Below, piece after piece: positions 26,268 through 27,779 of a stretch of 64,000 nucleotides of DNA (its first letter is position 1; each line of letters opens with the position of its first letter). The stretch comes from Akkermansia muciniphila (GTDB taxonomy: Bacteria; Verrucomicrobiota; Verrucomicrobiia; Verrucomicrobiales; DEV007). The translations under genes and the position numbers were made by a program. The notes under the pieces were generated by a model. That model was not told the DNA's origin. It was given only the letters and a program-made list of their open reading frames with translations, and did not search any database. The DNA lies in NCBI GenBank assembly GCA_945883495.1, contig CAMCXS010000017.1, positions 1-64,000 on the forward strand, written 5' to 3'.

Positions 26268-27779
26268 GTGTTCGTCCAAGGTCTCCTCAAGAAGATGTTC
26301 CATTTGCGCGACAAAGCCGGTCAACGCCGGCCCAAAGGCGCCGATGATGGGTTCGATGCCGAAGAAAAGCCGTTCCTCGATCACCTGGAGGATTTGCGGA
26401 TTATGTTCGTCAAGATGCTGGTCACGGTCATCGTCACGGTGACCGCTGCCAGTGTCTTTAATGTGCAGCTGGTCGAGCTGATCCAGTTGCCCGTGAAATG
26501 GGCCGGGATCGGCAAGCCGGACGCGATCGCGGCTATCTTCAACCTGAAGCGCACCGAGATGGAGCCGCGGTTTCATGCCGGAGAGCTCGTGCTGATGCAG
26601 GGCGGGGTGATCGCCGAGGTCGTTTCGGAAGATGTCCAGGTCGGCGTCACCACGCTGCAAATCGCGGACGGCGTCGAGATCTCCGCGAAGACGGACATGA
26701 TTTTGGGGACGATACCGACCCCGTCCGGCGATGTGAAATCCGCCGACATGCGGCGGCTATCGACTCGGCAAGTGCTGGTGATGGAGACCTTCACGCCTTC
26801 CGAGGGCCTCATGATCGTCATCAAGCTTGTCTTCTTCTCGGCCATTGTTGCGGCGCTGCCGTTGCTCCTTTGGTTCGCCGTGGAATTCATTTTGCCAGGG
26901 CTGCGGCAATCCGAAAAGAAAGCCGTTTTTCCCGCGCTGGTGGCCTCGTTCCTTCTCTTCTTGTTCGGCGCGTTTTTCGCGTTCCGGATCGGATTGCCGT
27001 TCGCCTTGCGCTGGTTGGTGGAGTGGAACGTGCAGCACGGGCTCTACGGCGGCTGGCGGGTTGGCTACTACATTGAGTTCGTGACTCAGGTGGTCGTGGT
27101 ATTCGGGTTGGCGTTCCAGCTCCCAGTCATCATTTTCGTGCTCATCTCGCTGGAGCTGCTCTCCTACGAAGCGATGGCGAATTCGCGTTCCTACGCGATC
27201 ATGATCATCCTTTTCGTAGCGGCCGTGCTGACTCCGCCTGACCCGATCACTTTGATTCTGCTCGGCGGTCCCATGGTGGCGCTCTACGAGGCTTGCATTT
27301 GGATCGCCTGGTTCCAGGAGCGCGGCCGTCGCCGTCGCGCCGAGGCCGAGGAGAAGCGTCGCCAGGAAGAACACGCCCGGCGTTTGGAGGAACTCGCCCG
27401 TCTGCCGGCCCCAGACCCGGAGCTTGCCCCGGAGCCGGGCGGATCTCCCGAGGGACCATACGATTCTCAGGAGCATCATTCGTTGGTGGAGGCGGATTCC
27501 TCAACGTCCGGGTTCCACGACGACCCCTATCATGACTGGCACGGGCATGATTCCCATCACCACCATGATCACGGTCACGACCATGGTTACTACTACACTT
27601 CGATCGATATCAATCACGCGACCTTCGAGGAGTTGCAGCGGTTGCCGGGGATCGGTCCGAAACTAGCGCAACGAATCATCGATTCGCGGCCGTTTTACAG
27701 CCAGGAAGAGCTCGAATATCACGCCAAGCTCCCGCCAAGCGTGATCAAGCTCATGGTGGATAGGATTTACTTTCACTAA
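26268..27779 (+). CDS. tatC: TatC translocase subunit with loop insertion and C-terminal His-rich / helix-hairpin-helix extension
   Basis: TatC is the membrane receptor of the twin-arginine translocase. This 503-aa version is about twice the usual length (about 250). The core is recognisable: FLDHLEDLRIMFVK, TFTPSEGLMIVIKL, the membrane helices FFSAIVAALPLLLWFAVEFILPGL and ALVASFLLFLFGAFFAFRIGLPFAL, YYIEFVTQVVVVFGLAFQLPVIIF and TPPDPITLILLGGPMVALYEACI. Between helices 1 and 2 about 100 extra residues (80-180) form a beta-rich loop. After helix 6 come a charged segment, a His-rich linker near residues 420-440, and a ComEA-like HhH domain (SIDINHATFEELQRLPGIGPKLAQRII). GTG start; an ATG nine codons in is possible. 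The HhH end is in frame with no frameshift. Confidence 0.9.
   Translation: MFVQGLLKKMFHLRDKAGQRRPKGADDGFDAEEKPFLDHLEDLRIMFVKMLVTVIVTVTAASVFNVQLVELIQLPVKWAGIGKPDAIAAIFNLKRTEMEPRFHAGELVLMQGGVIAEVVSEDVQVGVTTLQIADGVEISAKTDMILGTIPTPSGDVKSADMRRLSTRQVLVMETFTPSEGLMIVIKLVFFSAIVAALPLLLWFAVEFILPGLRQSEKKAVFPALVASFLLFLFGAFFAFRIGLPFALRWLVEWNVQHGLYGGWRVGYYIEFVTQVVVVFGLAFQLPVIIFVLISLELLSYEAMANSRSYAIMIILFVAAVLTPPDPITLILLGGPMVALYEACIWIAWFQERGRRRRAEAEEKRRQEEHARRLEELARLPAPDPELAPEPGGSPEGPYDSQEHHSLVEADSSTSGFHDDPYHDWHGHDSHHHHDHGHDHGYYYTSIDINHATFEELQRLPGIGPKLAQRIIDSRPFYSQEELEYHAKLPPSVIKLMVDRIYFH

Follow-up and report, generated by a model that had tools for sequence, protein, structure and literature searches.

The window analysed here, the whole of a 64,000-nucleotide stretch of DNA, carries on its forward strand a tatC gene whose product joins a TatC core to an insert in the first periplasmic loop (P1) and to a C-terminal tail that ends in a helix-hairpin-helix (HhH) domain. 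The gene and its parts are as follows:

26268..27779, + strand: tatC-HhH gene, GTG start, stop included, 503 aa; an intact ORF with the Pfam TatC and HHH_3 matches in one frame
26268..26501, + strand: residues 1-78, cytoplasmic N-terminus and TM1 with the signal-peptide site H39/D42 (E. coli H12/E15, roles from PMC13323110); AlphaFold2 helix 36-63; H39 invariant and D42 nearly invariant
26502..26783, + strand: residues 79-172, genus-specific P1 insert of 94 residues; 82-95% identity and dN/dS of 0.047-0.087 between congeners
26784..27314, + strand: residues 173-349, TatC TM2-TM6 with F207, L212 and E216 (E. coli F94, L99 and E103) and Q284 (E. coli E170); Pfam TatC, AlphaFold2 pLDDT mostly 85-97, Foldseek matches to TatC structures
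27315..27401, + strand: residues 350-378, charged helix prolonging TM6, Arg-rich at its start; from composition and the unbroken AlphaFold2 helix 326-378
27402..27590, + strand: residues 379-441, disordered His/Asp-rich linker; 13 His and a net charge of -13 (377-440), pLDDT below 50 over 394-442 with small gaps, indels and the highest dN/dS between congeners
27591..27776, + strand: residues 442-503, HhH domain; HHH_3 E 1.6e-11, AlphaFold2 pLDDT of about 94-97, 2duy TMt 0.80 and rmsd 1.3, dN/dS 0.035-0.056

The core of this protein is that of a complete TatC. Residues 38-335 match the whole of the Pfam TatC profile (positions 1-208; E 2.9e-47, 161.6 bits against a cut-off of 25.1), and the NCBIfam TatC model TIGR00945 is also passed (138.1 bits against 132.7). 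The residues of the signal-peptide site are kept as H39, D42 (a conservative change), F207, L212 and E216, which correspond to H12, E15, F94, L99 and E103 of E. coli TatC, whose roles have been described (PMC13323110). No second TatC accompanies it in the 6.46-Mb assembly, and two TatA-type genes (102 and 101 aa) lie side by side on another contig. Judged by its sequence, the 503-aa protein probably functions as a TatC and receives signal peptides for the only Tat system of the genome, a route by which folded proteins are exported; to this core are added clade-specific accessory parts.

One position within the core distinguishes the group to which this protein belongs. At residue 284 (27117-27119), which corresponds to the conserved TM4 Glu (E170) of E. 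coli, 42 of the 43 TatCs in the HhH group carry Gln, the likely exception being L005, and the other TatC rows carry Glu (81 of 82 by pattern, the 82nd showing Glu when read). A glutamate/glutamine residue has already been mentioned at this position (PMC6251230), and we consequently treat the Gln as a lineage marker.

An AlphaFold2 model of the full protein, built from 50 aligned sequences, comprises a confident TatC fold, a continuous helix that runs on from TM6 (residues 326-378), a disordered linker (pLDDT below 50) and a confident HhH block (pLDDT 94-97 over 442-500). In Foldseek searches the core matches 4hts with a TMt of 0.83, while the Nitratifractor salsuginis TatC 9e07 comes first by E-value; the tail, which makes up 154 residues after TM6 (350-503), matches the ComEA-related structure 2duy (TMt 0.80, rmsd 1.3, 37% identity) and also PsbU chains, with E-values that are weak because the tail is a small part of the model. 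Sequence comparisons agree, with Pfam HHH_3 matching residues 445-496 (E 1.6e-11, 44.6 bits against a cut-off of 27), and with N. salsuginis TatC as the best PDB match, over the core only, and 2duy as the nearest single structure to the HhH (E 7e-7). The initial annotation had read the gene as a TatC with a P1 insert followed by a tail of charged coil, His cluster and HhH, and this reading is borne out by the single ORF, the Pfam matches, the predicted structure and the relatives described below; the fold prediction does yield an HhH.

The P1 insert is a different matter. It had been described as an extra periplasmic loop domain, and an insert of 94 residues, conserved between congeners, is indeed present; however, its status as a folded domain is not supported. 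Residues 97-154 fall below a pLDDT of 50 in the full-length model, and the insert alone, predicted from three sequences, reached a pLDDT of 33, neither of two runs giving a confident model, so that we do not call it a folded domain, its conservation notwithstanding. Comparison with the helical P1 insert that is common in the order gave an hhalign probability of 0.3% against 99.2% for the positive control, and homology between the two is accordingly rejected. We likewise reject a YajC-like identity, tempting by eye, given a Pfam match below cut-off (E 0.032) and an hhalign score of 9.7 where shuffled sequences reached up to 18.3; the resemblance furthermore fades in the sister species (2.5-3.4 bits). 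The genus-specific insert (26502-26783) is well conserved yet without a detected relative.

As a kind of feature it is not new, since large periplasmic-loop inserts have been described in the TatCs of N. salsuginis and Myxococcus xanthus (PMC13323110) and inserts are common in the order. Their placement varies within the HhH-tailed group itself: a P1 insert is present in the window genus and absent from g9, while in the main clade (L034, L036-L051, L082-L108) the large insert occupies the second periplasmic loop (P2) in place of the first. L223 and L224, from another family, also possess a second-loop insert, without an HhH.

The HhH tail extends well beyond the window genus. The entire layout, GTG start included, is retained at 83-86% identity in two congeneric genomes, and the 75 genomes of the family, 67 of which have a TatC match, bring the HhH-tailed TatCs to 43 sequences in seven genera (g1, g2, g7, g9, g11, g13 and g17), all from this one family of the order Verrucomicrobiales; the public records of these relatives are of metagenome-assembled Verrucomicrobia or Verrucomicrobiales. 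The proposed check for the same architecture in other Verrucomicrobiota thus finds the whole layout in the two congeners and the HhH tail within the family. Among relatives with an uncut gene, none has the HhH as a separate gene; in L039 and L042, one a g14 and one a g7 member, the contig ends inside the TatC tail. In g1, g7, g9 and g13, tatC has fur and argH on its upstream side, and in g1 and g7 a NUDIX gene separates it from argH. An assembly error or chimera is ruled out by the shared reading frame of the 43 sequences, the conserved neighbourhood and the conserved start codon.

We find no HhH on TatC elsewhere in the order or in a sample of the class, where none of 48 TatC frames of at least 300 aa from outside the order has one and only five have a tail of more than 70 residues. 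When a tree is built from 124 TatC cores without their tails, and two contig-truncated rows are left out of the count, the presence of the HhH requires a single change and the group has an SH-aLRT of 95. A single origin is favoured, short of proof because the joining of the window genus and L005 (g9) involves long branches. From these sequences, the HhH tail looks like a feature inherited by descent from an apparent single fusion.

The ends of TatC tails in the order differ from clade to clade. In 13 rows of one sister clade from the same family (L016, L017, L020-L023, L028, L049, L059-L061, L068 and L070) a His/Asp linker is followed by a C-terminal amphipathic helix of the EELK type (motif type YYSGPTEELKRxLREEL) instead of the HhH, again by one change on the tree, and 68 rows of the order with neither end module have acidic tails with a median length of 110 residues and a median of 3 His. 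The HhH is a clade-specific end module on an acidic, often His-containing tail type that is common in the order. A possible third end module is found at the end of one further TatC tail (L035:1895-3424), which has a weak SAP-like match below the cut-off (E 0.011).

Selection acts unevenly along the tail. Comparison of three congeners gives dN/dS values of 0.035-0.056 in the HhH, 0.026-0.040 in core residues 173-349 and 0.047-0.087 in the P1 insert; the linker, with indels, reaches 0.14-0.18 in the two congener pairs for which it could be computed. These ratios are rough because dS is high (approximately 0.5-2.5). The HhH is under strong purifying selection and evolves at about the pace of the TatC core, whereas the sequence of the tether is not so constrained: the linker is conserved in composition rather than sequence.

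How might an HhH at the end of such a tail serve a Tat receptor? The known topology of TatC, together with the Arg cluster after TM6, would place the tail on the cytoplasmic side. Tat core complexes are (TatBC)3 assemblies in which the TatC cup opens to the cytoplasm (PMC13323110), and three TatC tails should therefore project at the cytoplasmic mouth. The explanation we favour, to which we give a probability of roughly 45%, is that the HhH is a protein-docking module on a flexible tether of TatC. On each of the three tails at the mouth of the receptor, the charged helix would lead into the flexible tether and this into the folded HhH, which would bind a protein partner and so keep it near the receptor. 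The partner might be a substrate, a substrate's chaperone, a TatA-type protein, a second HhH or some other cytoplasmic complex. The tether would set the reach of this arm and might also bind divalent metal, which is plausible for a His/Asp linker. The sister clade in which an amphipathic helix takes the place of the HhH lends support to a contact function, as the end of the tether then looks like an exchangeable contact module. Against this explanation, the tails of the TatA-type proteins offer nothing complementary and no hint of a partner.

Several alternative hypotheses may account for the same tail. One possible, if unlikely, explanation is that HhHs bind to one another or to the TatC core and thereby hold the receptor oligomer together on its cytoplasmic face, in the manner of the periplasmic insert of M. 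xanthus on the other side. That insert forms a homotrimer that adds TatC-TatC contacts (PMC13323110), and tails borne by a trimer would place three HhHs close together; yet a long disordered tether, of approximately 60 residues here and longer in relatives, is ill-suited to serve as a rigid brace.

We also consider it unlikely that the tail is mainly a metal-handling device, in which the His/Asp linker would buffer or sense metal ions (Zn, Ni, Co or Cu) close to the receptor, possibly in the service of metal-containing Tat substrates, with the HhH as a structural cap. The abundance of His is consistent with such a role, all 41 HhH tails of the tree having at least 8 (median 18; the coil-ended tails of the sister clade have a median of 8). 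However, acidic tails with a median of just 3 His are found in 68 further TatC rows of the order, no ordered metal site is visible, and this explanation gives no account of why the HhH should be the most conserved part of the tail.

The initial annotation had raised the idea of a DNA- or metal-binding tail that could couple Tat export to another process. Were the HhH to bind nucleic acid, the Tat receptor would be tethered to the nucleoid, to mRNA or to ribosomes, and export coupled to gene expression. In favour of nucleic-acid binding, DNA is what HhH folds are chiefly known to bind, the ComEA-related 2duy comes closest in sequence among single structures, and the L035 tail has its weak SAP-like match. 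Vibrio cholerae ComEA contacts DNA mainly through K63, assisted by K62 (PMC3879209). With the K63 position mapped by inference from the G60, K62 and K63 of that study, none of the 41 aligned TatC HhHs has Lys there (L in 22, M in 16, D in 2 and I in 1; L in the window HhH), while Lys is present at the K62 position in 23 of the 41, the window HhH included. The absence of a K63 equivalent is not decisive by itself, since this Lys can also be missing from HhHs elsewhere in these genomes. However, net charge averages -5.1 in the TatC HhHs and +0.7 in 23 further HhHs taken from 11 of these genomes (p 4e-4 when restricted to those genomes, the rows being related and not independent), the second hairpin glycine is replaced by D, E or N in seven of them, and the tether is strongly acidic. 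Furthermore, when seven relatives, with or without an HhH, were scanned, L005, L037 and L051 passed the Pfam cut-off for PsbU, which the window HhH falls below (18.9 bits against 24.5). Taken together, DNA binding is not supported and nucleic-acid binding by the group is rather unlikely, while for the window genus, whose HhH is near neutral (net charge -1), has an intact GIG hairpin and keeps the K62-equivalent Lys, it is disfavoured rather than rejected. Secreted nuclease-like proteins ending in an HhH of the same subtype occur in the window's own genome (L275, G000:C8) and as L274, L283, L284, L268, L279 and L289, the thermonuclease-like label having been given by eye.

A composite scheme, in which the HhH would bind nucleic acid and the His/Asp tether would respond to metal, keeping the export machine beside DNA, mRNA or ribosomes and so coupling substrate synthesis or cofactor loading to Tat export, seems improbable. 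Least probable is a neutral decoration or an artefact of gene prediction or assembly, to which the variable, low-complexity linker might have pointed, in view of 43 in-frame sequences, core-like purifying selection on the HhH and a conserved neighbourhood and start codon.

TatC is usually regarded as a pared-down membrane protein that extends little beyond the bilayer. Throughout one branch of the Verrucomicrobiales, however, the sole TatC has kept a folded, soluble domain, and selection on this domain is approximately as strong as selection on the core. Should the HhH dock a partner, as in the protein-docking explanation favoured here, it would open a way to learn how substrates, chaperones or TatA gather at the receptor. 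Natural TatCs with cytoplasmic bulk may also help structural work on the cytoplasmic side, just as the inserts of N. salsuginis and M. xanthus were chosen for the periplasmic side. In the literature searched, which covered few subscription papers, we found nothing relevant on a TatC with an HhH, a C-terminal extension, a His-rich tail or a DNA-binding fusion, and the words 'extension' and 'tail' are absent from a TatC survey (PMC3827258). The view that the architecture is undescribed consequently stands, within that literature, for the cytoplasmic HhH tail, but not for periplasmic TatC inserts, which are already known (PMC13323110).

Each part of the protein resembles a known system and departs from it. 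With ComEA and ComEA-related HhH proteins (2duy, 8dss) the tail shares the HhH fold and sequence (2duy E 7e-7, rmsd 1.3), yet here the HhH is carried on TatC, is presumably cytoplasmic, has no K63 equivalent and is acidic on average. PsbU, the extrinsic HhH protein of photosystem II, whose HhH serves protein contact, has the same fold, and three relatives pass its Pfam cut-off, although the window HhH does not and there is no photosystem context here. The TatCs of N. salsuginis and M. xanthus likewise possess large inserts in their periplasmic loops, and that of N. salsuginis is the best PDB sequence match; however, the match covers the core only, and we saw no cytoplasmic HhH tail mentioned in PMC13323110. 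Finally, in common with the TatC family at large (PF00902, TIGR00945; E. coli, Aquifex), the protein has the complete six-helix core (4hts TMt 0.83) and the signal-peptide residues, with E15 as Asp, but in contrast to the E. coli and Aquifex proteins it is approximately twice as long, bears a 94-residue P1 insert and a 154-residue HhH tail, and has Gln in place of the TM4 Glu.
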